Shown here in pieces: positions 33,114 through 46,895 of a stretch of DNA of 64,000 nt. Both the position numbers and the translations under genes were made by a program. Where the stretch lies: the NCBI RefSeq assembly GCF_023634805.2, contig NZ_CP106881.1, forward strand, positions 3,315,501 through 3,379,500, in the 5' to 3' direction. The DNA comes from Comamonas endophytica (GTDB taxonomy: Bacteria; Pseudomonadota; Gammaproteobacteria; Burkholderiales; Burkholderiaceae_C). Below the pieces are notes generated by a model. That model saw nothing but the letters and a program-made list of their open reading frames with translations. It had not been told where the DNA came from and ran no database searches. Within the stretch, counting starts at the first letter, position 1; each line of letters starts with the position of its first letter.

Positions 33114-34799
33114 ATGTTGTCCTACTCCCGCAATCTCAGTGTCTTGACCTGCTCGCTTGTCGGGCTGGCCGCTCCCATCGCCCATTCCCAGCAGTTGCCC
33201 GACGCGGGCACCCAGCTGCGGCAGATCGCTCCGGTGCCTCAGCCGCTGCGTCCGGCACCCGAGCTCCGTATCCAGTCTCCCGATGCCCAGGCGCCGGTTG
33301 GCGCCGAGGGCGGCGCGCGCATCGTGGTCTCTTCGGTTCAGATCGAAGGCGTCAATGCGTTCACGGCCAGCGAATTGCTGGCGCAGGCGGGTTTCGTGCC
33401 TGGATCCGAGCTCGACCTGTCGCAACTGCGCTCGCTGGCGGCGCGCATCACCGACTTCTACCGCAGCGCGGGCTACTTCGTCGCGCGCGCCTACCTGCCG
33501 GCGCAGGAGGTGCGTGACGGCCAGGTGACGATCTCGGTGGTGGAAGGCACTTACGGCAAGGTCGAGCCGCGCAACCAGTCGCGGCTGTCGCCGTCGGTGG
33601 CCCGCGGCCTGATGGGCGAGGTGGCGGCGGGCGAGACGGTGCGCAGCGCGCCGCTGGAAAGCAGCCTGCTGCTGCTGTCGGACCTTCCCGGCGTGGCGGT
33701 GCGCTCGACCCTGGCACCGGGCGTGGCCGTGGGCACTTCCGATCTGTTTGTCGACATCGTGCCTGGCGCGGCATTCAGCGGCAGCATCGATGCCGACAAC
33801 CAGGGCAACCGCTACACCGGCCGCGAGCGGGTGGGCGCGATCCTGAACCTCAACAACCCGGCCGGCCTGGGCGACGTCGCCAGCCTGCGCCTGCTCACGG
33901 CGGGCGACGGCCTCAAGTACGCGCGCGCTTCCTACCAGGTGCAGGCCGGGCGCGGCAAGCTCGGCCTGGCCTATGCCCATCTCGATTACCGCCTGGGCAA
34001 GGAGTTCGCCAGCCTGCGGGCGCATGGTACGGCGAAGGTGGCGAGCGTGTTCGGCAGCTACCCGCTGCTGCGCAGCCGCAATGCCAGCCATTACCTGCAG
34101 TGGAGCTTCGACGACAAGCGCTTCGACGACCGCGTGGACTCCACCGGCGTGCAGAACGACAAGAAAAGCCGCCTGCTCACCGTCAATCTCAATGGCGACC
34201 AACGGGCGCTGTTTGGCGGCGAGTCGCTGAGCACCTACCAGCTGTCCCTGGGCCTGGGCCGCTTCGACCCGCAAAGCGCGCCGCTGCGCGCGGCCGACGC
34301 CGCCAGCGCGCGCACCGAGGGCAGCTTCTCCAAGCTGGGCTTCAGCCTGGGCCACCTGCAGGCCGTGGCGCCAAACACCTATCTTTCGGTGGCGCTGGGC
34401 GGGCAGTTCGCCTCGAAGAACCTCGATGCCTCCGAGAAGATGGCGCTGGGCGGCTCGTCCGCGGTGCGTGCCTATCCCGAAGGCGAGACCCAAGCCGACG
34501 AGGCCTATGTGCTCACCATCGAGGCGCGCCACAACCTGGGGCAACTGGCCGCCGCCGTGCCCGGGCAGCTGCAGCTGGTGGGCTTTGTCGATACCGGCGC
34601 CGCCCGCATCAGCAAGAACCCCTGGACCAGCGCCGACAACCGCCGCACGCTCAGCGGCGGCGGGATCGGCGTGAACTGGGTCGTGGACCGCAGCTTCGTC
34701 GTCAAGGCGTTCTACGCCCACACCATCGGCAGCGCGCAGGCCACGTCCGCGCCGCCGGCCAGCAGCCGCTTCTGGCTCCAGGGCGTCAAGTACTTCTGA
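33114..34799 (+). CDS. Two-partner secretion outer-membrane transporter (TpsB; ShlB/FhaC/HecB family)
   Basis: 561 residues with a signal peptide ending near IAHSQQ. A proline-rich linker follows, then a POTRA domain (VVSSVQIEGVNAFTASELLA to about residue 150) and a 16-strand beta-barrel. The conserved lid-loop/barrel region includes ASEKMALGGSSAVRAYPEGE, matching the family pattern LGG-x2-(S/T)VRGY-x4-E, and the C terminus ends in the barrel signal phenylalanine (GVKYF). It exports a partner TpsA across the outer membrane. The partner gene begins 64 bp downstream. It is probably the first gene of a four-gene transcript that includes the sulfotransferase. Confidence 0.95.
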   Translation: MLSYSRNLSVLTCSLVGLAAPIAHSQQLPDAGTQLRQIAPVPQPLRPAPELRIQSPDAQAPVGAEGGARIVVSSVQIEGVNAFTASELLAQAGFVPGSELDLSQLRSLAARITDFYRSAGYFVARAYLPAQEVRDGQVTISVVEGTYGKVEPRNQSRLSPSVARGLMGEVAAGETVRSAPLESSLLLLSDLPGVAVRSTLAPGVAVGTSDLFVDIVPGAAFSGSIDADNQGNRYTGRERVGAILNLNNPAGLGDVASLRLLTAGDGLKYARASYQVQAGRGKLGLAYAHLDYRLGKEFASLRAHGTAKVASVFGSYPLLRSRNASHYLQWSFDDKRFDDRVDSTGVQNDKKSRLLTVNLNGDQRALFGGESLSTYQLSLGLGRFDPQSAPLRAADAASARTEGSFSKLGFSLGHLQAVAPNTYLSVALGGQFASKNLDASEKMALGGSSAVRAYPEGETQADEAYVLTIEARHNLGQLAAAVPGQLQLVGFVDTGAARISKNPWTSADNRRTLSGGGIGVNWVVDRSFVVKAFYAHTIGSAQATSAPPASSRFWLQGVKYF

Positions 34800-34820
34800 C
34801 CCCCGCAACGCACGCCTCTT

Positions 34821-34849
34821 CGGCCGCCCTGGCGGCCGCTTCCCTTTTT
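34821..34849 (+). terminator. GC hairpin plus T-run between tpsB and tpsA (possible partial attenuator)
   Basis: CGGCCGCC and GGCGGCCG pair across a very short loop (34821-34838), followed by CTTCCC and five T (34845-34849). This resembles a weak intrinsic terminator inside the operon and could lower tpsA expression relative to tpsB, or stabilise the upstream mRNA end. The distance from stem to T-run is longer than ideal. Confidence 0.4.
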
Positions 34850-34862
34850 CCGATCGCCCGCC

Positions 34863-37800
34863 ATGAATCACATCTACCGCTCCCTCTGGAATGAAAAGCT
34901 CGGCACCTATGTCGCCGTCGCCGAGACCGCAGTCAGCGCCGGCAAGAAGGTCTCATCGAGCCGCAGCGGCGCCGCGCATTTCGCGGTGACGGCGCTGGCG
35001 GCCGCGCTGTGCCTGGGCTGGGGCGGGGCGGCGCTGGCGAATCCGGTGGGCGGCGTGGTCACCGCCGGTTCGGCCGCCATCTCTTCCGCGCCCGGCAGCA
35101 CCACCATCACGCAGGGCAGCCAGAACGCGGCCATCAACTGGCAGAGCTTCAATATCGGCGCCGGCGAGTCCGTGCGCTTCGTGCAGCCCAATGCCAACGC
35201 GGTGGCGCTCAATCGGGTCGTCGGCGGCGATCCTTCGAGCATCCTGGGCAGCCTGTCGGCCAACGGCAAGGTGTTCCTGGTCAACCCGAACGGCATCCTG
35301 TTCGGCCGCGGCGCATCGGTGAATGTCGGCGGCCTGGTGGCCTCGACGCTGAACATCACGGACAGCGACTTCATGGCCGGGCGCTATCGCTTCGCGGGCA
35401 GCGGCACGGCGGGCGTGAACAACCAGGGCCGCATCGATGCACCAGGCGGCTATGTGGCGCTGCTGGGCGCGAACGTGAGCAACACCGGCGTGATCGCCGC
35501 GCGCATGGGCAGCGTGGCGCTGGCGGCGGGCCAGGCGGTGACGCTGGATGTGGCGGGCGACGGCCTGCTCAATCTAAGCGTGGACCAGGGCGCGGTCAAG
35601 GGGCTGATCGACAACGGCGGACTGATCCAGGCCGATGGCGGCCAGGTGCTGATGACGGCGCAGGCGGCGGGCAATCTGCTGGACACCGTGGTCAACAACA
35701 CCGGCGTGGTGCAGGCGCAGAGCATCGACAAGCGCGGCGGCACCATCAAGCTGCTGGGCGACATGCAGTCGGGCACCGTGAACGTCGGCGGCACCCTGGA
35801 TGCCAGCGCGCCGCAGGGCGGCAACGGCGGCTTCATCGAAACCTCGGCGGCCAAGGTCAGGGACCAGGGCGCGCTGGTGACCACCGCCGCGCCGCACGGC
35901 ATCACGGGCAGCTGGCTGATCGACCCGACCAATTACAACATCGCGGCGTCGGGCGGCGACATCACCGGCACCGATCTGGGCAACCGGCTCAAGACCACCA
36001 ACGTGGTCATCGAAACGGTGGCCGCCGGCTCCGACGCCGGCAACATCACCGTCAACGACAACGTCTCCTGGGCCGCCAACAAGCTGACGCTGAAAGCGCA
36101 CAACGACATCGTCATCAACCAGGCCATGCGCGGCTCCGGCAGCGCCAGCCTGGCGCTGCAGTACGGCCAGGCCAGCGCGGCCGGCACCGGCAGCGGCTAC
36201 AAGGTCAACGCCGAGGTCGACCTGCCCAGCGGCATGAACTTCAGCACCCAGCAGGGAAGCACCGGCGCGGTGGTCAACTACCGGGTCATCAATGCCCTGG
36301 GCGCGCCGGGCAGCCAGACCGGAGCCGACCTCCAGGGCATCGATGGCAATCTGTCGGGCAACTATGTGCTGGGCAGCAATATCGATGCGCGGGCTACGGT
36401 CGGCTGGAACGGCGGGGCGGGGTGGAAGTCCATCGGCGCCGATGACCGGCCCTTCACGGGCCGCTTCGACGGCCTGGGGCATGAGATCCATGGACTGACC
36501 ATCAACCGTAGCAGCGCGGGTGGCGCCGGCTACGGCGGGCCTGCCGGCGATTTCGGCATGTTCACACGCATCGGCAGCAGCGGCCAAGTGCGCAATCTAG
36601 GCCTGGTGAACATGTCGTTGAGCACGGGTGCGGCCATTTACGGCTACGGCAGCTCGGGAGGACTGGCGGGCGTCAACGAGGGCTCCATCGACAATGTCCG
36701 GGTCAGCGGCAGTTTCACGGCTTTCGACTACGGCAGGGTGGGGGGGCTGGTGGGTTACAACCTCGGCACCATCGACAACAGCCACAGCAGCGGTATGCTT
36801 ACCGCCGAGGTGCGCACTCCTGGCCGCGATGGTTTCGTCTACGGTGCCGGCATCGCCGTCTACAACGGAACACAGTTTGGCGGCGCGACTCCGGCCTCCA
36901 TCCGCAACAGCTCCAGCAGCATGAAGATCACGGCCAGCGCCGTGGGCGCCGGCCTCGTGGGGCAGAATTCGGGCGGCATCAGCAACAGCTTTGCCACCGG
37001 GGACGTCAGCGGCGGCCACCTCGCCGCTGGATTGGTCGCCTACAACGGCGGCACCGGCTCGATCGACAACAGCCACGCCACCGGCAATGTGGTGGGGGCC
37101 TACAACATGGCTGGCGGCCTGGTGGCCGACAACAGCGGCGGCTCGATCGACAACAGCTATTTCAGCGGCAACGTGAGCGGCGGCAGCCAGTACATCGGTG
37201 GCATCGCCGGTTACAGCTTCGGCGCCATCAGGAACAGCTATGTCACTGGCAATGTATCCGGAGCCGCCTACGCGGGTGGCATTGCCGGATACAGCACCAC
37301 CGGCGGCAGGCTGGAGAACGTCTACAGCAGCGGTACGGTCCGCTCTTCGATGGCTGGCGGCGCAGGGGGTGTCGTGGGCACACTCAACAACAGCGTTGTC
37401 AGGAACACCTACTACAACTCGACGCTCAACCCAGGGATAAGCGCCTTTGCCCGCACGGACAACACCCCGAGCAACGGCGCCGGCGGCCCTCCCATGGGAG
37501 CCGGCCTGACCACGGCCCAGATGAAGCAGGCCTCGAGTTTTGCCGGTTTCAATTTCACCAATACCGGCGGTCTGGCCGGCAACAACTGGGTCATGGTGAA
37601 CGCCGATGGCACGCTGGCGGCCAATGGCGGCACCGCGGCCGCGGGCACCATGCCCATGCTGGCGTCCGAATACAGCAAGACCATCCACTCCGCCCACCAG
37701 CTGCAGCTGATGGTCATGGACAAGAGCGCCAGCTATACCCTGGGTTCCAGCTTCAGCGCCGCAGGCACGGCCAGCACGGCCAAGGACATCTGGGGCAGTA

Positions 37801-40800
37801 CCGGCTTCATTCCGGTGGGCAGCCTGATGAACGGCTTCACCGGCAAGCTCGATGGCACGGGGCACATCGTCTCCAACCTGAACATCTACCGGGCCGGCGC
37901 GACGGCCGTCGGCCTGTTCGGCGGGCTGGGCAATGGCGGCGCCGTTGCCAACATCGGCCTGGACGGCGGCAGCATCACCGGCGGCTCGACCACCGGCGCC
38001 CTGGTGGGCTACAACGCCCGCGGCACGGTTTCCAACAGCTTCAGCACCGCGGCGGTGAACGGCACTTCCAATGTGGGCGGGCTGGTGGGCGCCAATACCA
38101 TCGCAGCGTCGGTCACCGACAGCTATGCGACCGGTACGGTGATCGGCTCCAGCGGCGTGGGAGGCCTGGTCGGCAGCAACAGCGGCACGGTGGTCAATTC
38201 CTATGCGGCGGGGATGGTGATGGGCAATCCTGGCCAGAGCGGCGGCCTGGTCGGCGTGGGCAACGTGGGCAGCGTCAACAACAGTTTCTGGAACATGTCG
38301 ACCAGCGGCCAGCCCACCAGCGGCGCGGTCGATGGCAACCGCGGCATCGGCCTCGCGACGGCGGAACTGAACAAGCTCGCCAACTACAACAGCGCCACCG
38401 TTGCCAATGGCGCGGTCAATCCGAACTGGGACCTGACCAAGACATGGGTCGTGTATGACGGCCAATCCGCGCCGCTCCTGCGCGCCTTCATGAAGCCGCT
38501 GGTGGTCACCGTGGGATCCGGCACCAAGGTCTATGACGGCACCGCCTCGGGCGGCACCAATACCGTCTCCTACTCCAACGTGATCAACGGCGACGTGGCC
38601 GGCACGCTGCAGTACAGCACCGCAGGCGGCGTCAATGTCGGTACCTATGCGGCGTCGGCTAGCGGCCTGCATGCGCTGGGCGGGCAGACCGGCTACGCGA
38701 TCAGCTACGTCGATGGCAGTATGACCGTGACGCAGCGCCAGGTCAGTCTCAACGCCACCAAGGTCTACGACGGCACGACGACGGCCAACCTGGCGGGCGC
38801 GACGCTCACGGGCCTGGTCGGCAATGAAACGCTGAACTTCTCCGGCGGCACCGCAGGCGATTACAGCGACAAGAACGTCGGCGCCGGCAAGGCCATCACA
38901 GTGACCGGTGTCACGCTGGCCGACGGCACGGGCGGCGGGCTGGCAAGCAACTATGTGTTCGCCGGGGGCACTGGCGAGATCACCGCCAAGGCGCTGACGG
39001 TGACCGGTGTGGCCGCCACTACCAAGACCTATGACGGCACCACCAGCGCCACGCTCACGGGCGGCACGCTCGCGGGCCTGGTTGCCGGCGAAACCCTGGG
39101 CCTGTCGGGCCTGAGCGGGACGTTCAACGACCAGCACGCTGGCAGCGGCAAGGCCGTGACCGTCACGGGCGTCGGCCTGGTCGACGGCACCGGCCTGGCG
39201 CGCAATTACACGGTCGGCAACCCCACCGGCGTCGTCGGCACCATCACGCCCAAGGCATTGACGGTCAGTGGCGTTTCGGCCAATAGCAAGACCTATGACG
39301 GCAACACCACCGCCACGCTGGCGGGCGGCACGCTCAATGGTTTGGTTGCCGGAGAGACACTGTTCCTGGGGGGGCTGAGCGCTGCGTTCAGCGATGCCAA
39401 CGCGGGCTTTGGCAAGGCGGTGGTCGTGACCGGCGCTTCCCTGATCAACGGCACGGGCCGGTCGAGCAATTACACGGTGAGCGGCCCGGTGGGCCTGACG
39501 GCCAATATCAATCCCAAGATTCTGACCATCACCGGAGCGACGGCCCACAGCAAGACCTATGACGGCACGACGGCGGCAACGTTGTCGGGCGGCACGCTGC
39601 AGGGCCTGGTGGCCGGTGAAACGCTGACCCTGGCGGGCTTGAGCGGCAGGTTCGGCAATGCCAACGCAGGCGTCGGCAAGCTGGTGGACCTGTCGAGCTA
39701 CGTACTGGTCAACGGCACGGGCCTGGCCAGCAACTACATCGTGAACTCCTATGTACCGGGCCTGGTGGCCAACATCAACGCCAAGGCCTTGACGGTCAGC
39801 GGCGTGACGGCGGCCAGCAAGACCTATGACGGCACCGACACGGCGATCCTCTCGGGCGGCACGCTCAACGGCCTGGTGGGCACGGAGACGCTGGTGCTGT
39901 CGGGCCAGTCCGGTGCCTTCGGCGACAAGAATGCCGGAGTCGGCAAGGCCGTGACGGTGACGGGCGCGACGCTCTCCAACGGCACGAACGGCGGCCTGGC
40001 CAGCAACTACACCGTGACGAACGCCACGGGCGTGACGGCCAATATCGACGCCAAGGCCCTGACGGTCAGCGGCGTGACGGCGGCCAGCAAGACCTATGAC
40101 GGCAACGACGTCGCCACGCTGTCGGGCGGGACCCTGAATGGCCTGGTGGGCAGCGAAACACTGGGGCTTTCCGGCCAGACCGGCACCTTCAGCGACAAGA
40201 ATGCCGGCTCCGGCAAGTCCGTCACGGTCACGGGCGCCACCCTGTCCAACGGCACGAATGGTGGCTTGGCCAGCAACTACACCGTGACGAACGCCACGGG
40301 CGTGACTGCCGATATCAACGCCAAGGCCCTGACGGTCAGCGGCATGACGGCGGCCAGCAAGACCTATGACGGCACGGATGCGGCGACTTTGTCGGGCGGC
40401 ACGCTCGAGGGCCTGGTGGGCGGCGAAACGCTGGTGCTGTCGGGACAATCCGGCACGTTCGGCGACCGCAACGCCGGCAGTGGCAAGGCGGTGACCGTGA
40501 CGGGCGCGACGCTGGGCAACGGCACGGGCCTGGCCAGCAATTACACGGTCGCCAACCCCACGGGCCTGACCGCCGATATCAACGCCAAGGCCCTGACCGT
40601 CAGCGGTGTGACGGCTGCCAGCAAGACCTATGACGGCACCACGACCGCCACGTTGTCGGGCGGCACGCTCGAAGGCCTGGTGGGTGCGGAGACGCTCGTG
40701 TTGTCCGGACAATCGGGCACCTTCGACGACAAGAACGCCGGCACCGGCAAGGCAGTGACGGTGACGGGCTCTACGCTGTCCAACGGCACGAACGGCGGCC

Positions 40801-43800
40801 TTGCCAGCAACTACACCGTGAGCAATCCCACCGGGGTCACCGGCAGCATCACGCCCAAGGCGCTCACGGTGAGCGGTGTCAGGGCGGACAACAAGGTCTA
40901 CGACGGCAATGCCGCGGCAACCCTCAGCGGCGGCACGCTCGCCGGCATGGTCGCCGGGGAGACGCTGGGCCTGTCGGGCCTGAGCGGGACCTTCGACAAC
41001 CGGAACGCCGGCAGCGGCAAGGCCGTCACCGTGACGGGCGCCAGCCTGATCGACGGCAGTGGCCTGGCCAGCAACTACACGGTAGGCAGCCCGGTCGGCA
41101 TCACCGCGGATATCACCGCCAAGGCGTTGACAGTCGGCGGTGTCACGGTTGCAGACAAGAGCTATGACGGCACGACGGCGGCCAGCCTGTCGGGCGGCAC
41201 GCTCGTTGGCCTGGTGGACAACGAGACGTTGACCCTGTCGGGCCAGACGGGTACCTTCGGCGACAAGAATGCCGGGACCGGCAAGGCCGTCACGGTAACC
41301 GGCGCGACGCTGGGCGATGGCACGGGGCTAGCCAGCAACTACACCGTGAGCAATCCCACCGGCGTCACCGGCAACATCACGCCCAAGGCGCTCACGGTGA
41401 GCGGGGTCCGGGCAGACAACAAGTTCTACGACGGCAATGCCACTGCGGCCCTCAGCGGCGGCACGCTCGCCGGCATGGTCGCTGGCGAAACGCTGGGTAT
41501 GTCGGGCCTGAGCGGGACCTTCGACGACCGGAACGCCGGCACCGGCAAGGCTGTCACCGTCACGGGCGCCAGCCTGATCGACGGCACTGGCCTGGCCAGC
41601 AACTACACGGTAGCCAGCCCCGTCGGCATCACCGCGGATATCACCGCCAAGGCGCTGACGGTCAGCGGCGTCACAGCGGCAGACAAGACCTATGACGGCA
41701 CGACGGCGGCAAGCCTGTCTGGCGGCACCCTCGTTGGCCTGGTGGGCAACGAGACCCTGACCCTGTCGGGCCAGACGGGCGCCTTCAGCGACCAGAACGT
41801 CGGGGCCGGCAAGGCCGTCACCGTAACCGGCGCCACGCTGGGCAATGGAACGGGCCTGGCCAGCAATTACACCGTCAGCAATGCCACGGGCGTGACTGCC
41901 GATATCACAGCCAAGGCATTGACGGTGACCGGAGTGACGGCCGCCAACAAGACCTATGACGGCACGACGGTGGCAACGCTGTCGGGCGGCACCCTCGACG
42001 GTTTGGTCGGCAACGAAACGCTGACCCTGTCGGGCCAGACCGGTGCCTTCAGCGACCAGAACGCCGGTGCAGGCAAAACCGTCACGGTGACCGGCGCCGC
42101 GCTGGGCAATGGAACGGGCTTGGCCAGCAATTACACCGTCAGCAATGCCACGGGCGTAACTGCGGACATCACCGCCAAGGCCTTGACAGTGACCGGCGTG
42201 ACCGCCGCCAACAAGACCTACGACGGCACGACGGTGGCAACGCTGTCGGGCGGCACGCTGACCGGCCTGGTCGGCAATGAGACGCTGACCCTTTCTGGCC
42301 AGACCGGTGCCTTCAGCGACCAGAACGCCGGTGCAGGCAAAACCGTCACCGTGACCGGTGCCACGCTGGGCAATGGAACGGGCTTGGCCAGCAATTACAC
42401 CGTCAGCAATGCCACGGGCGTAACTGCGGACATCACCGCCAAGGCCTTGACAGTGACCGGCGTGACCGCCGCCAACAAGACCTACGACGGCACGACGGTG
42501 GCAACGCTGTCGGGCGGCACGCTGACCGGCCTGGTCGGCAACGAAACGCTGACCCTGTCGGGCCAGACCGGTGCCTTCAGCGACCAGAATGTGGGAACCG
42601 GCAAGGCCGTAATGGTGACCGGCGCCACGCTGGGCAATGGCACGGGCCTCGCCAGCAACTACACGGTCAGCAACGCCACAGGCGTGACTGCGGACATCAC
42701 CGCCAAGGCCTTGACGGTGACCGGCGTGACGGCCGCCAACAAGACCTATGACGGCACCACGGCGGCAACGCTGTCGGGCGGCACGCTCGACGGTTTGGTC
42801 GGCAACGAAACGCTGACCCTGTCGGGCCAGACCGGTGCCTTCAGCGACCAGAACGCCGGTGCAGGCAAAACCGTCACCGTGACCGGTGCCACGCTGGGCA
42901 ATGGAACGGGCTTGGCCAGCAATTACACCGTCAGCAATGCCACGGGCGTAACTGCGGACATCACCGCCAAGGCCTTGACAGTGACCGGCGTGACCGCCGC
43001 CAACAAGACCTACGACGGCACGACGGTGGCAACGCTGTCGGGCGGCACGCTGACCGGCCTGGTCGGCAATGAGACGCTGACCCTTTCTGGCCAGACCGGT
43101 GCCTTCAGCGACCAGAACGCCGGTGCAGGCAAAACCGTCACCGTGACCGGTGCCACGCTGGGCAATGGAACGGGCTTGGCCAGCAATTACACCGTCAGCA
43201 ATGCCACGGGCGTAGCGGCCGATATTACGGCCAAGGCCTTGACGGTGACTGGAGTGACCGCCGCCAACAAGACCTATGACGGCACGACGGTGGCAACGCT
43301 ATCGGGCGGCACGCTGACCGGCCTGGTCGGCAACGAAACGCTGACCCTGTCGGGCCAGACCGGTGCCTTCAGCGACCAGAATGTGGGAACCGGCAAGGCC
43401 GTAATGGTGACCGGCGCCACGCTGGGCAATGGCACGGGCCTCGCCAGCAACTACACGGTCAGCAACGCCACAGGCGTGACTGCGGACATCACCGCCAAGG
43501 CCTTGACGGTGACCGGCGTGACGGCCGCCAACAAGACCTATGACGGCACCACGGCGGCAACGCTGTCGGGCGGCACGCTCGAAGGCCTGGTGGGCAACGA
43601 GACGCTGACCCTGGGCGGCCAGACGGGTGCCTTCGGCGACCAGAACGCAGGAACCGGTAAGGCCGTTATCGTGACCGGCGCCACGCTGGGCAACGGCACG
43701 GGCTTGGCCAGCAATTACACGGTGAGCAATGCCACGGGTGTGACAGCCGATATCACGGCCAAGGCCTTGACGGTGACCGGCGTGACCGCCGCCAACAAGA

Positions 43801-45377
43801 CCTACGACGGCACGAAGGTGGCAACGCTGTCGGGCGGCACGCTGACCGGCCTGGTCGGCAACGAAACGCTGACCCTGTCGGGCCAGACCGGTGCCTTCAG
43901 CGACCAGAACGCCGGTGCAGGCAAGACCGTCACCGTGACCGGCGCCACGCTGGGCAATGGTACGGGCTTGGCCAGCAACTACACGGTCATCAACGCTACG
44001 GGCGTGACTGCCGATATCTCCGCCAAAGCCTTGACGGTGACCGGCGTGACCGCCGCCAACAAGACCTACGACGGCACCACGGTGGCAACGCTGTCGGGCG
44101 GCACGCTGAATGGTTTGGTCGGCAATGAAACGTTGACCCTGAGCGGCCAGACCGGTGCCTTCAGCGACCAGAACGTGGGAACCGGCAAGGCCGTGGCAGT
44201 GACCGGCGCCACGCTGGGCAATGGCACGGGCTTGGCCAGCAATTACACCGTCAGCAATGCCACGGGCGTGACTGCCGATATCACAGCCAAGGCCTTGACG
44301 GTGACCGGAGTGACGGCCGCCAACAAGACCTATGACGGCACGACGGTGGCAACGCTGTCGGGCGGCACGCTGACCGGCCTGGTCGGCAACGAAACGCTGA
44401 CCCTGTCGGGCCAGACGGGCGCCTTCAGCGACCAGAACGCCGGTGCAGGCAAGACCGTCACCGTGACCGGTGCCACGCTGGGCAATGGAACGGGCCTGGC
44501 CAGTAATTACACCGTGAGCAACGCGACGGGCGTGACTGCCGATATCACAGCCAAGGCATTGACGGTGACCGGAGTGACGGCCGCCAACAAGACCTATGAC
44601 GGCACGACGGTGGCAACGCTGTCGGGCGGCACGCTGACCGGCCTGGTCGGCAACGAAACGCTGACCCTGTCGGGCCTGACCGGTGCCTTCAGCGACCAGA
44701 ACGCAGGAACCGGCAAGGCCGTGACGGTGACCGGCGCCACGCTGGGCAATGGCACGGGCCTGGCCAGCAACTACACCGTGAGCAACGCCACGGGCGTCAC
44801 GGCCGACATCACGCCTAAAGTCTTGACCGTCACCGGCATGACCGCTCTGGACAAGACTGCCGACGGCAACGCCGTCGCCTCGCTGGCCGGCGGCGCGCTG
44901 AGCGGCCTGGTGGGCGCGGAAACATTGGGCTTTGCCGGGCAGACCGGACGTTTCGACAACGCTGACGCCGGCACGGCCAAACCCGTGACCGTCAGCGGCC
45001 TGACCCTGCTGGATGGCACGGGCCTGGCCAGCAACTACCGCGTGGAAAACCCCACGGGGCTTTCGGCCAGCATCATTGCGGCCGAAACACGGCCGGCTTC
45101 CGCCGCCAGCGATGCGATTGCCGCGGCCCAGTCCGTCGCGGCGCCGGTATCGCTGGGCGGCAACGTCGTGGCGCCCCAGATGGTGCTGGCACAGCAGCCC
45201 GCCACGCCCGATGGTGGTGCGCGGTCCGAGTCCGGCGGCACCGGCCCGGCCGTGCGCAACGACGTCGGCGTGCTGCCTTCGGCATTGCAGGGCATGGCGC
45301 TCGACGTGGTGGGCAGCGGCGTGAACCTGTCTGTTCTGCAGGCTCCTGCCGGTGGTGGCGCGCAGGAACAACGGTAA
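34863..45377 (+). CDS. Giant two-partner secretion exoprotein (FHA-type adhesin) with GLUG and YDG repeats
   Basis: 3504 residues. The N terminus is an extended signal peptide (ESPR: MNHIYRSLWNEKLGTYVAVA), with cleavage near residue 59. The TPS secretion domain follows (about 60-320) with the hallmarks FLVNPNGILFGRGASVNVGG and NWQSFNIGAGESVRFVQP. Residues about 480-850 and 1060-1160 carry GLUG motifs (GGLVGYN..., SIDNSYFSG). From residue 1224 an MBG/YDG region of about 25 repeats, each 88-90 residues (KTYDGT...LSGGTL.GLVGNETL), extends to about 3400. The C terminus is short and has no toxin domain, which argues for an adhesin rather than a CDI effector. Partner TpsB lies upstream, and a sulfotransferase and APS kinase lie directly downstream. 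Confidence 0.95.
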   Translation: MNHIYRSLWNEKLGTYVAVAETAVSAGKKVSSSRSGAAHFAVTALAAALCLGWGGAALANPVGGVVTAGSAAISSAPGSTTITQGSQNAAINWQSFNIGAGESVRFVQPNANAVALNRVVGGDPSSILGSLSANGKVFLVNPNGILFGRGASVNVGGLVASTLNITDSDFMAGRYRFAGSGTAGVNNQGRIDAPGGYVALLGANVSNTGVIAARMGSVALAAGQAVTLDVAGDGLLNLSVDQGAVKGLIDNGGLIQADGGQVLMTAQAAGNLLDTVVNNTGVVQAQSIDKRGGTIKLLGDMQSGTVNVGGTLDASAPQGGNGGFIETSAAKVRDQGALVTTAAPHGITGSWLIDPTNYNIAASGGDITGTDLGNRLKTTNVVIETVAAGSDAGNITVNDNVSWAANKLTLKAHNDIVINQAMRGSGSASLALQYGQASAAGTGSGYKVNAEVDLPSGMNFSTQQGSTGAVVNYRVINALGAPGSQTGADLQGIDGNLSGNYVLGSNIDARATVGWNGGAGWKSIGADDRPFTGRFDGLGHEIHGLTINRSSAGGAGYGGPAGDFGMFTRIGSSGQVRNLGLVNMSLSTGAAIYGYGSSGGLAGVNEGSIDNVRVSGSFTAFDYGRVGGLVGYNLGTIDNSHSSGMLTAEVRTPGRDGFVYGAGIAVYNGTQFGGATPASIRNSSSSMKITASAVGAGLVGQNSGGISNSFATGDVSGGHLAAGLVAYNGGTGSIDNSHATGNVVGAYNMAGGLVADNSGGSIDNSYFSGNVSGGSQYIGGIAGYSFGAIRNSYVTGNVSGAAYAGGIAGYSTTGGRLENVYSSGTVRSSMAGGAGGVVGTLNNSVVRNTYYNSTLNPGISAFARTDNTPSNGAGGPPMGAGLTTAQMKQASSFAGFNFTNTGGLAGNNWVMVNADGTLAANGGTAAAGTMPMLASEYSKTIHSAHQLQLMVMDKSASYTLGSSFSAAGTASTAKDIWGSTGFIPVGSLMNGFTGKLDGTGHIVSNLNIYRAGATAVGLFGGLGNGGAVANIGLDGGSITGGSTTGALVGYNARGTVSNSFSTAAVNGTSNVGGLVGANTIAASVTDSYATGTVIGSSGVGGLVGSNSGTVVNSYAAGMVMGNPGQSGGLVGVGNVGSVNNSFWNMSTSGQPTSGAVDGNRGIGLATAELNKLANYNSATVANGAVNPNWDLTKTWVVYDGQSAPLLRAFMKPLVVTVGSGTKVYDGTASGGTNTVSYSNVINGDVAGTLQYSTAGGVNVGTYAASASGLHALGGQTGYAISYVDGSMTVTQRQVSLNATKVYDGTTTANLAGATLTGLVGNETLNFSGGTAGDYSDKNVGAGKAITVTGVTLADGTGGGLASNYVFAGGTGEITAKALTVTGVAATTKTYDGTTSATLTGGTLAGLVAGETLGLSGLSGTFNDQHAGSGKAVTVTGVGLVDGTGLARNYTVGNPTGVVGTITPKALTVSGVSANSKTYDGNTTATLAGGTLNGLVAGETLFLGGLSAAFSDANAGFGKAVVVTGASLINGTGRSSNYTVSGPVGLTANINPKILTITGATAHSKTYDGTTAATLSGGTLQGLVAGETLTLAGLSGRFGNANAGVGKLVDLSSYVLVNGTGLASNYIVNSYVPGLVANINAKALTVSGVTAASKTYDGTDTAILSGGTLNGLVGTETLVLSGQSGAFGDKNAGVGKAVTVTGATLSNGTNGGLASNYTVTNATGVTANIDAKALTVSGVTAASKTYDGNDVATLSGGTLNGLVGSETLGLSGQTGTFSDKNAGSGKSVTVTGATLSNGTNGGLASNYTVTNATGVTADINAKALTVSGMTAASKTYDGTDAATLSGGTLEGLVGGETLVLSGQSGTFGDRNAGSGKAVTVTGATLGNGTGLASNYTVANPTGLTADINAKALTVSGVTAASKTYDGTTTATLSGGTLEGLVGAETLVLSGQSGTFDDKNAGTGKAVTVTGSTLSNGTNGGLASNYTVSNPTGVTGSITPKALTVSGVRADNKVYDGNAAATLSGGTLAGMVAGETLGLSGLSGTFDNRNAGSGKAVTVTGASLIDGSGLASNYTVGSPVGITADITAKALTVGGVTVADKSYDGTTAASLSGGTLVGLVDNETLTLSGQTGTFGDKNAGTGKAVTVTGATLGDGTGLASNYTVSNPTGVTGNITPKALTVSGVRADNKFYDGNATAALSGGTLAGMVAGETLGMSGLSGTFDDRNAGTGKAVTVTGASLIDGTGLASNYTVASPVGITADITAKALTVSGVTAADKTYDGTTAASLSGGTLVGLVGNETLTLSGQTGAFSDQNVGAGKAVTVTGATLGNGTGLASNYTVSNATGVTADITAKALTVTGVTAANKTYDGTTVATLSGGTLDGLVGNETLTLSGQTGAFSDQNAGAGKTVTVTGAALGNGTGLASNYTVSNATGVTADITAKALTVTGVTAANKTYDGTTVATLSGGTLTGLVGNETLTLSGQTGAFSDQNAGAGKTVTVTGATLGNGTGLASNYTVSNATGVTADITAKALTVTGVTAANKTYDGTTVATLSGGTLTGLVGNETLTLSGQTGAFSDQNVGTGKAVMVTGATLGNGTGLASNYTVSNATGVTADITAKALTVTGVTAANKTYDGTTAATLSGGTLDGLVGNETLTLSGQTGAFSDQNAGAGKTVTVTGATLGNGTGLASNYTVSNATGVTADITAKALTVTGVTAANKTYDGTTVATLSGGTLTGLVGNETLTLSGQTGAFSDQNAGAGKTVTVTGATLGNGTGLASNYTVSNATGVAADITAKALTVTGVTAANKTYDGTTVATLSGGTLTGLVGNETLTLSGQTGAFSDQNVGTGKAVMVTGATLGNGTGLASNYTVSNATGVTADITAKALTVTGVTAANKTYDGTTAATLSGGTLEGLVGNETLTLGGQTGAFGDQNAGTGKAVIVTGATLGNGTGLASNYTVSNATGVTADITAKALTVTGVTAANKTYDGTKVATLSGGTLTGLVGNETLTLSGQTGAFSDQNAGAGKTVTVTGATLGNGTGLASNYTVINATGVTADISAKALTVTGVTAANKTYDGTTVATLSGGTLNGLVGNETLTLSGQTGAFSDQNVGTGKAVAVTGATLGNGTGLASNYTVSNATGVTADITAKALTVTGVTAANKTYDGTTVATLSGGTLTGLVGNETLTLSGQTGAFSDQNAGAGKTVTVTGATLGNGTGLASNYTVSNATGVTADITAKALTVTGVTAANKTYDGTTVATLSGGTLTGLVGNETLTLSGLTGAFSDQNAGTGKAVTVTGATLGNGTGLASNYTVSNATGVTADITPKVLTVTGMTALDKTADGNAVASLAGGALSGLVGAETLGFAGQTGRFDNADAGTAKPVTVSGLTLLDGTGLASNYRVENPTGLSASIIAAETRPASAASDAIAAAQSVAAPVSLGGNVVAPQMVLAQQPATPDGGARSESGGTGPAVRNDVGVLPSALQGMALDVVGSGVNLSVLQAPAGGGAQEQR
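38532..45080 (+). repeat. Tandem YDG-repeat array within tpsA (about 25 units, 264-bp period)
   Basis: The Y codon of the YDG motif recurs at 38532, 38766, 39030, 39294, 39558, 39825, 40095, 40365, 40629 and 40899. From there it recurs every 264 bp exactly to 44859, sixteen units in register. The last unit has lost the tyrosine (KTADG). Older 5' units differ in length (264, 267 or 270 bp) and sequence, while central units are almost identical. Each unit encodes one Ig-like beta domain with two tyrosines, in YDG and SNYTV. Confidence 0.95.
42103..43582 (+). repeat. Higher-order duplication: 792-bp (three-unit) block copied in tandem inside tpsA
   Basis: Bases from about 42103 to 42790 recur at about 42895 to 43582, offset 792 bp (3 x 264). 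Rare shared variants such as the CTTTCTGGCC codons and GTAATGGTGACC appear in both copies. A short diverged patch (about 42415-42455 against 43207-43247) interrupts the identity and looks like gene conversion. This marks recent unequal recombination. Confidence 0.85.
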
Positions 45378-45387
45378 GAGGAAAGTC

Positions 45388-46233
45388 ATGTCTTTCAACT
45401 TCGTCGGCATCACCGGTCTGCCGCGCGCCGGCTCCACCTTGCTGGGCCAGTTGCTGGCCCAGCATCCCGAAGTGCATTGCGAGGGCAACAGCTCGCCGCT
45501 GTGCTCCACGCTGCAGGGAATCCGGCGCCAGATCAGCCATGAGCCGTTTTTCCTGTCGCAGCTCGACGGCGGCTTCGACACCGCCTATGGGCACCTCGAG
45601 TCGGCCATGCAGGGCTTCCTGCGCGGCTGGTACCGGGATGTCGGCAAGCCGGTGGTGGTGGACAAGAGCCGGGCCTGGCTGAACTCCGTCGAAACGCTGC
45701 TGGCACTGGCACCCGAGGCGAAGCTCATCGTCTGCCTGCGCGAACTGGGGCAGGTCTATGGCTCGGTCGAGGCAAGGCACCAGAAAACGCCGCTGCTGGA
45801 CTTCGTCGACCAGTTGGCCGATCTCGACCGCTTCGGCCGCGCCGACGCGCTGTTCGCCAAGGAGCGCACGATCGGCGCGCCGCTGGCGGCGCTGCAGGCC
45901 ATCGACGATCTGCCGCTGGAGGTGCGCCAGCGCCTGTACTTCCTGCGTTTCGAGGATCTGATGGCCAACCCCGCGGCCTGCATGTCGCACCTGTTCGCCT
46001 GGCTCGGCATCGCGCCCTTTGCCATCGATCCGGAGAACCTGCCCATAGGCGCGCCGGAAAGCGACAGCCATTACCGCATGAAATACATGCACCGCCAGTC
46101 GGCGCGCATCTCCACGCCGCGCCCGCATGAGATCCCGGCGCGCATCCAGGCGCGCATCGAGCTGGCCTGCGCCTGGTACTACGAGCGCTATTACCCGGGT
46201 TTCACCGCCGCCGCGCCATCGGCGCATCAATGA
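45388..46233 (+). CDS. PAPS-dependent sulfotransferase
   Basis: 281 residues, ATG after a strong GAGGAAAG ribosome site, 10 bp after tpsA. The 5'-phosphosulfate loop is GITGLPRAGSTLLGQLLAQH (residues 7-26), and the 3'-phosphate site is around KLIVCLRELGQVYGSVEARH. RLYFLRFEDLMANPAACMSH is the typical second half of the fold. The loop resembles the Sulfotransfer_3 family, which includes tyrosylprotein sulfotransferases and some carbohydrate sulfotransferases. No signal peptide or membrane segment is present, so it acts in the cytoplasm, before export. It overlaps cysC by 4 bp, so donor synthesis and use are coupled. The acceptor is not known; the TpsA protein is the contextual candidate. Confidence 0.88.
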   Translation: MSFNFVGITGLPRAGSTLLGQLLAQHPEVHCEGNSSPLCSTLQGIRRQISHEPFFLSQLDGGFDTAYGHLESAMQGFLRGWYRDVGKPVVVDKSRAWLNSVETLLALAPEAKLIVCLRELGQVYGSVEARHQKTPLLDFVDQLADLDRFGRADALFAKERTIGAPLAALQAIDDLPLEVRQRLYFLRFEDLMANPAACMSHLFAWLGIAPFAIDPENLPIGAPESDSHYRMKYMHRQSARISTPRPHEIPARIQARIELACAWYYERYYPGFTAAAPSAHQ

Positions 46234-46856
46234 ATATGGCCGGCAGTTCCGGGCCATCCCCCAACGTCGTCTGGCAGCCCGGCCTGCTCGATGAAGCCAC
46301 GCGCCAGCGGCGCAACGGCCACCGCGGCGCCGTGGTCTGGCTGACCGGCTTGCCCGGTTCGGGCAAGTCCACGCTGGCTTTTTCGGCCGAGTTGCAGCTG
46401 CATGCGCAGGGATTCCAGACCGCGGTGCTCGACGGCGACAACCTGCGCCACGGCCTGTGCGCCGACCTGGGTTTCTCGCTCGAGGACCGGCGCGAGAACA
46501 TGCGCCGCGTGGGCGAAGTCGCCCGCCTCTTTGCCGCGCAGGGCAGCGTGGTCCTTGTGGCCCTGGTCTCGCCGCTGCGCGCCGCGCGCGACCTGATGCG
46601 GGCACGCATGCCTGCCGGTGGCTTCATCGAAGTGCATTGCGACTGCCCGCTGACAGTGTGCCGGCAGCGCGATCCCAAGGGCCTCTACGCCAAGGCTGCG
46701 CAAGGACTGATCTCGGATTTCACTGGAGTGAGCTCGCCCTACGAGGTGCCGCTGGCGCCGGAGCTGGTGCTGCATACGGCGCAGGAAGGGCATGAAGCTT
46801 CGGCGCAGCGGCTTGCGCTGTTTTTGCTGGAGCGCCTGCGCCAAGGCGCGCAGTAG
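46230..46856 (+). CDS. cysC: Adenylylsulfate (APS) kinase
   Basis: 208 residues. Walker A is GLPGSGKST (residues 40-48), followed by VLDGDNLRHGLCADLGFSLE and DRRENMRRVGEVA, the APS-binding elements. DPKGLYAKAAQGLISDFTG and SPYEVP are the conserved lid and substrate loop. It phosphorylates APS to PAPS, the sulfuryl donor. In sulfate assimilation it usually accompanies cysDN; here it stands alone, translationally coupled (ATGA) to the sulfotransferase, which indicates a dedicated PAPS supply. It is convergent with the porin gene. Confidence 0.95.
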   Translation: MNMAGSSGPSPNVVWQPGLLDEATRQRRNGHRGAVVWLTGLPGSGKSTLAFSAELQLHAQGFQTAVLDGDNLRHGLCADLGFSLEDRRENMRRVGEVARLFAAQGSVVLVALVSPLRAARDLMRARMPAGGFIEVHCDCPLTVCRQRDPKGLYAKAAQGLISDFTGVSSPYEVPLAPELVLHTAQEGHEASAQRLALFLLERLRQGAQ

Positions 46857-46895
46857 CGCTGTCTTCCCATGCGGGCGGCAAACGCCCGCGGACGT

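Follow-up and report, generated by a model that had tools for sequence, protein, structure and literature searches.

The closest described relatives of the system analyzed here come from two lines of work. HMW1C of Haemophilus influenzae is a cytoplasmic enzyme, encoded beside the tpsA and tpsB genes of a two-partner secretion (TPS) system, which modifies the adhesin before its export (PMC3983070 and PMC5422565, both in excerpt). RaxST of Xanthomonas oryzae, modelled by its authors on TPST2, adds sulfate to RaxX prior to its type I secretion, using 3'-phosphoadenosine 5'-phosphosulfate (PAPS) that is supplied by core genes (PMC6637879, in excerpt). The window studied here is a stretch of 64,000 nucleotides from Comamonas endophytica (contig NZ_CP106881.1, positions 3,315,501 to 3,379,500), and it contains an operon of four genes: tpsB, tpsA, a PAPS-type sulfotransferase (ST hereafter) and cysC, the gene for an adenosine 5'-phosphosulfate (APS) kinase. 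By analogy, the closest working model for ST in its operon is HMW1C, and the closest chemistry is that of RaxST.

The resemblance to the HMW1A/HMW1B/HMW1C system extends to the tpsA and tpsB genes, the adjoining cytoplasmic modifying enzyme and the extended signal of the exoprotein, as far as the excerpts of PMC3983070 and PMC5422565 describe them. It differs in that the window has a sulfotransferase in place of a hexose glycosyltransferase, and in that CysC, which makes the donor, is encoded within the operon. No HMW1C-like glycosyltransferase stands beside tpsA, where the adjacent enzyme is the sulfotransferase; the locus would work like HMW1C without being a member of that system. With RaxX-RaxST-RaxAB it shares a PAPS-dependent sulfotransferase encoded together with a secreted polypeptide and its exporter, a likeness drawn from the description of that system in the PMC6637879 excerpt and not from the RaxST sequence. 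On the same source, RaxX is a 60-residue type I precursor as opposed to an exoprotein of 3504 residues secreted by the type Vb route, and the PAPS enzymes are core genes in X. oryzae, whereas CysC is in the operon here. Neither a RaxX-like leader-peptide substrate nor a RaxAB exporter was found in the operon, which holds only the four genes named. Among the matches listed in open-licence literature, we found no description of a sulfotransferase in a TPS locus, and in the excerpt of the TPS review PMC5422565 the only match to 'sulf' was O-acetylserine sulfhydrylase. A preliminary description of this DNA likewise knew of no described TPS system with its own sulfation module.

The four genes form one compact operon on the forward strand, as delimited by open reading frames and Pfam families. 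The outer-membrane transporter of the TpsB/FhaC type (tpsB, 33114..34799, 561 residues; ShlB 4.9e-24, POTRA_2 1.6e-18) is followed after 63 bp by the giant exoprotein (tpsA, 34863..45377, 3504 residues), and this after 10 bp by ST (45388..46233, 281 residues; Sulfotransfer_3 2.9e-18), which overlaps cysC (46230..46856, 208 residues; APS_kinase 1.5e-61) by 4 bp. ST starts with ATG; an alternative GTG at 45352 would push its start into tpsA. TpsA begins with an extended signal peptide (ESPR, residues 1-48, 34863..35006; PF13018 1.1e-13) and the TPS secretion domain (35043..35783, positions 3350543-3351283 of the contig; PF05860 7.4e-44), the latter taken from a genome-wide profile search, since hmmscan of the single protein did not list PF05860. 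Further on lies an array of 24 YDG stretches (PF18657) with approximate limits at 38454..45050, and the protein also has GLUG repeats; its sequence contains 25 YDG tripeptides and 20 copies of SNYTV. The system is of type Vb, with a TpsB that combines POTRA domains and a ShlB/FhaC barrel and an exoprotein that combines an N-terminal TPS domain and the extended Sec-type signal. CysC matches PF01583 over its full length (positions 1-151 of 152, 207 bits). Coordinates and Pfam families agree with the four-gene operon claimed in the preliminary description, which had the 10-bp gap and the 4-bp overlap right and the gap between tpsB and tpsA wrong by one (64 bp in place of 63).

How far this arrangement recurs was examined through the relatives of ST. 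A protein search retrieved 1289 of them at E<=0.001, the best 120 being 66-91% identical, and when named genomes were scanned with a profile of 25 ST sequences, 266 loci were confirmed, the best 80 of which were used. These fall into 38 orthologs with at least 59% identity (L032-L067, L081, L082), 14 divergent members at 42-55% (L068-L080, L083) and 28 distant sulfotransferases (L084-L111) at 25-37%, apart from L098, one of these 28, whose match at the edge of a contig covers 69 residues with 54% identity and which may be an ortholog fragment. Within these best 80 of 266 loci, TPS markers were found in the flanks of 29 of the 38 orthologs and, with both marker sets applied, of none of the 28 distant sulfotransferases (Fisher p 3.7e-11, for rows that are not phylogenetically independent, because several of the 38 are Janthinobacterium). 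Eighteen of the 29 have a match to TpsB or to the TPS domain, and 11 show only exoprotein repeats or C-terminus, 8 of them by repeats of the YDG/GLUG type alone and three (L044, L056, L066) by TpsA C-terminal queries and inspection by eye. The strict count of TpsB or TPS domain is 18/38 vs 0/28 (p 8.1e-6, for the same non-independent rows). According to their record titles, the marker-positive loci belong to Janthinobacterium, Undibacterium, Schauerella, Rhodoferax, Limnohabitans, Gallionella, Methylobacter, Dyella, Burkholderia, Azospirillum, Geobacter and Oryzomonas, besides records of Chlorobiaceae. Two gene orders, tpsB-tpsA-ST and tpsA-tpsB-ST, occur among the linked loci, and in five (L039, L042, L043, L045, L057) the markers are on the strand opposite to ST. 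The locus is well established, and so is its recurrence. The survey supports the proposal of the preliminary description that a sulfation module is tied to a TPS adhesin, and the recurrence of the gene set in distant bacteria suggests that some of them decorate exported adhesins with sulfate.

Within the family to which the window belongs, sampled with 299 genomes, the gene is rare. Fourteen genomes matched ST, nine of them at 26-32% identity that were set aside as paralogs, leaving an ortholog in five: the genome of the window and G061, G067, G173 and G251. In two of these ST appears only in pieces, as a split gene (G173) or at a contig edge (G251), and the three other sampled genomes of the same genus have no ST match. 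On a tree built from 33 TPS domains (matches below 180 residues, that is L146, were dropped, and L150 and L158 had no match), the 13 ST-linked rows require a minimum of 3 changes vs a mean of 10.6 for shuffled labels, and none of 500 shuffles was as low as the observed value. ST thus follows one particular lineage of TpsA, in which it has at times been lost or gained. Two family loci are reduced: L148 (G173:C103) is a decayed relative with ST in two separated pieces, and L146 (G061:C78) has a 65-residue TPS fragment and a partial tpsB beside ST-cysC.

An APS kinase at E<=1e-20 is present in 75 of the 299 family genomes. All five genomes with an ST ortholog have one beside ST, and four of them (G061, G067, G173, G251) have no other at this threshold, which supports the private APS kinase proposed earlier. 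The genome of the window has two full-length PF01583 genes in a profile search, each near a sulfotransferase gene; two weak partial matches (2.8e-4, 6.9e-4) were set aside. Its sulfate assimilation cluster lies on the same contig as the operon, near positions 231855-237148, where two PF01507 genes, one CysH-like and one CysD-like, stand before a CysN-like one (assignments made by eye), and it contains no cysC. The absence of cysDN from the operon, also claimed in the preliminary description, is thus confirmed, with cysH, cysD and cysN placed elsewhere on that contig. This CysH contains CCGIRK and CAPC, which we take to be the mark of iron-sulfur APS reductases, and an organism with APS reductase does not need PAPS for cysteine. 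Since CysH looks like such an enzyme, the PAPS of this genome seems, judging from these motifs, to be dedicated to adhesin-sulfotransferase systems. In 10 of the 38 named orthologs, cysC follows ST at a distance of at most 611 bp; in L061 (Geobacter) and L065 (Chlorobiaceae), ST is followed by a PF01507 gene (CysD by position) and CysNC; and of the remaining 26 genomes, all but one, a 2.6-Mb assembly, encode an APS kinase at another place.

The plural in 'systems' refers to a second set in the same genome. On C2, a contig other than that of the operon, positions 509822-530733 (L007, L008, L152) encode in order an adhesin of 4321 residues with 21 cadherin stretches, a fusion of tetratricopeptide repeats (TPR) and sulfotransferase, a TolC-type protein, an ABC exporter, HlyD and cysC. 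A giant adhesin, secretion machinery, a sulfotransferase and an APS kinase in one row are common to this set and the TPS operon; the set differs in its type I secretion and in its sulfotransferase, a TPR fusion of another subfamily. G182, of another genus, has the identical gene order (L184), with a TPR-sulfotransferase 68% identical and its only APS kinase last. A close TPR-sulfotransferase was found in only these two of the 299 family genomes, with partial matches at 35-38% in three more. Because the C2 set parallels the TPS operon, the same recipe of giant adhesin, exporter, sulfotransferase and APS kinase is used twice in this organism, each time with a different type of secretion and a different sulfotransferase subfamily. 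Profiles of PF13469 and PF00685, the two families searched, find two sulfotransferases in the genome, and beyond both adhesin sets there is neither a full-length APS kinase nor a sulfotransferase of these families.

ST itself belongs to the Sulfotransfer_3 family by its profile, its 5'-phosphosulfate-binding (5'-PSB) arginine and its 3'-phosphate-binding (3'-PB) serine, motifs whose roles are taken from the excerpt of PMC6637879. All 29 aligned orthologs have R13, K93, R118 and S126, and R13 and S126 are shared by 8 of 8 distant members as well. The preliminary description saw a resemblance to tyrosylprotein sulfotransferases, and indeed the closest solved structures are TPST1 and TPST2, both by sequence and by predicted fold, while for the one control paralog the closest structure is not a TPST. 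Unlike these enzymes, ST has no signal peptide that we could see by eye and lacks their catalytic glutamate.

We therefore consider ST to be a sulfating third partner of the TPS adhesin, analogous to HMW1C with sulfate replacing the sugar, and give this reading a probability of roughly 60%. APS would be supplied by the separate CysD-CysN and phosphorylated by CysC to PAPS, from which cytoplasmic ST would transfer sulfate to the TpsA polypeptide, most likely to tyrosines. This would happen on unfolded TpsA and precede Sec export, after which TpsB would thread the sulfated protein to the cell surface, where its negative charge would change how it adheres, how stable it is or what it binds. We infer with fair confidence that ST acts on TpsA. 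Tyrosine as the acceptor is more tentative, at a little under an even chance, and serine, threonine or a glycan may serve instead; the version in which ST sulfates a glycan on a glycosylated TPS adhesin seems to us quite unlikely.

The acceptor was sought in TpsA itself. The preliminary description had singled out the YDG tyrosines, and as a specific acceptor we rejected them: YDG is common without ST, being present in 72 of the 299 family genomes, only four of which carry ST (the genome of the window, G061, G067 and G173). Twenty YDG-TpsA loci of 12-20 kb each contain neither ST nor cysC, and these, because they were picked outside ST genomes, show only that ST-less YDG is common. The YDG query matches 18 of the 38 ortholog loci, and two ST-linked TpsA contain no YDG tripeptide at all, that of L043 and that of L060, whose repeats read YDA. 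Positions 197, 473 and 501 of TpsA are tyrosine in 12, 13 and 12 of 14 linked rows. Tyrosine makes up 2.3-5.2% of ST-linked TpsA (14 rows) vs 1.1-1.8% in 5 unlinked ones, a comparison that is confounded by lineage and leaves out L151 (broken); in the ST-less L159 and L177 it is 2.4-2.7%.

Several of our results weigh against ST as a sulfating partner of TpsA. No tyrosine motif common to all ST-linked TpsA was found, and the three tyrosines just mentioned are also present in 2 of 8 unlinked rows. Opposite the catalytic glutamate of TPST2 (Glu99) the alignment places ST residue 34 or 35, where the 29 orthologs have N/H/Q/M or S, and as the glutamate is not conserved, the catalytic base and perhaps the acceptor class differ from those of TPST. 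The TPR-sulfotransferase matches TPST2 as well (4.3e-14), so that likeness to TPST is not specific to ST. The TpsA of L159, L174 and L177, which have no ST, fall inside the mostly ST-linked part of the tree. A cysC is found in the flank of 5 of the 28 distant sulfotransferases (L085, L086, L088, L091, L107); the cysC-sulfotransferase pairing is not special to TPS loci. The neighbourhood survey, which the preliminary description had named as a check, points both ways: within the ortholog group the pair is not unlinked from tps, but TPS markers are missing from the examined flanks of 9 of the 38 orthologs (L041, L046, L047, L049, L053, L055, L058, L064, L082, several of them on short contigs) and of all 14 divergent members. 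The genomes of the nine all have a TPS domain elsewhere (9/9, a count that has no baseline from comparable genomes). In those of the divergent members, counted without L069 and L072, the domain is present in 6 of 11 and absent from 5 of 11, the absences being again unfavourable; none of 14 control genomes has it.

The orthologs and divergent members without TPS neighbours are what one would expect if ST targeted another surface molecule (a lipid, a polysaccharide or a small molecule) used together with the adhesin, and the wider sulfotransferase family does include members that sulfate lipids and small molecules. We regard this as unlikely in view of the recurrent linkage to tpsA/tpsB in 29/38 and of the parallel sulfotransferase-cysC set that adjoins a type I secreted adhesin; moreover, no other recurrent class of neighbour was noticed except sulfate-activation genes, in loci that were not surveyed systematically for neighbours. 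The patchy distribution, with a match in 0/3 of the other same-genus genomes sampled, the split ST of G173 and the tpsA remnant beside ST-cysC in G061 could also be taken to mean that ST-cysC moves as a cassette or is passively inherited, functionally unrelated to TpsA. Such hitch-hiking is improbable when the linkage is kept at 59-73% ST identity and in two gene orders, spans Beta-, Gamma- and Alphaproteobacteria, Geobacter relatives and Chlorobiaceae, and is missing from the distant sulfotransferases (0/28) as ST is from the YDG-TpsA loci (0/20, chosen outside ST genomes). Many bacteria, finally, use CysC as an ordinary enzyme of sulfate assimilation, and here too it might serve general assimilation, its location in the operon being incidental; this is hardly credible with an assimilation cluster that has no cysC of its own, a CysH with cysteines of the APS-reductase type and 224 of 299 family genomes without an APS kinase at E<=1e-20.

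If ST does sulfate TpsA, the conserved TPS-sulfotransferase-APS kinase operon would extend protein sulfation, which in bacteria is to our knowledge chiefly known from the RaxX peptide, to giant adhesins in several phyla, and would explain why some bacteria whose sulfate assimilation does not require PAPS retain an APS kinase. Operon neighbourhood predicts enzyme-substrate pairs that can be checked by mass spectrometry. A wider proposal, somewhat more likely to fail than to hold, is that sulfation of exported giant adhesins, probably on tyrosine, recurs among bacteria and arose beside both TPS and type I secretion, each with its own sulfotransferase and APS kinase, and that organisms with APS reductase make PAPS solely for this purpose.

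By Pfam, the gene before the operon encodes a flavin-binding protein, and the one after it, which is convergent, a porin. The region upstream of the operon yielded no sigma-70-like promoter, and the GC content of the operon does not differ noticeably. On inspection, the interval between cysC and the porin contains a short GC-rich inverted repeat without a T run (46871..46889, forward strand), a possible candidate for the operon end.

Some features of other loci are worth recording. A short motif resembling V..GGV[KR]LP, close to the C-terminal end, was seen by eye in several ST-linked TpsA (e.g., L033, L036, L050, L060), and endings related to GGV[KR]LP occur also in the ST-less L159 and L177. 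In three TpsA of the YDG type without ST (L162, 5678-12940; L165, 7000-13344; L175, 5497-11787), the C-terminus is formed by a Peptidase_C14 domain of the caspase family, and by eye the C-termini of L158, L163, L164 and L168 look similar. Near orphan ST genes of Nitrosomonadales/Gallionellaceae we found a FecR-type protein (PF04773) in L049 (4334-5104) and a FecR-looking one, by eye and with no Pfam match, in L046 (1-639). The divergent ST of a cyanobacterium and of a Competibacteraceae member adjoins proteins with weak matches to pectate-lyase-like adhesive domains, which fall below the Pfam cut-off (L070, 10937-11542; L080, 2-823). The genome of the window has a further TPS locus of the YDG type without ST (L151, C1:720001-735000), whose gene looks disrupted because the TPS domain and the YDG part are in separate open frames, and also a TPS exoprotein of 2788 residues (L150, C1:2913584-2921950) with a small open reading frame beyond its 3' end, which from its layout recalls contact-dependent inhibition systems.

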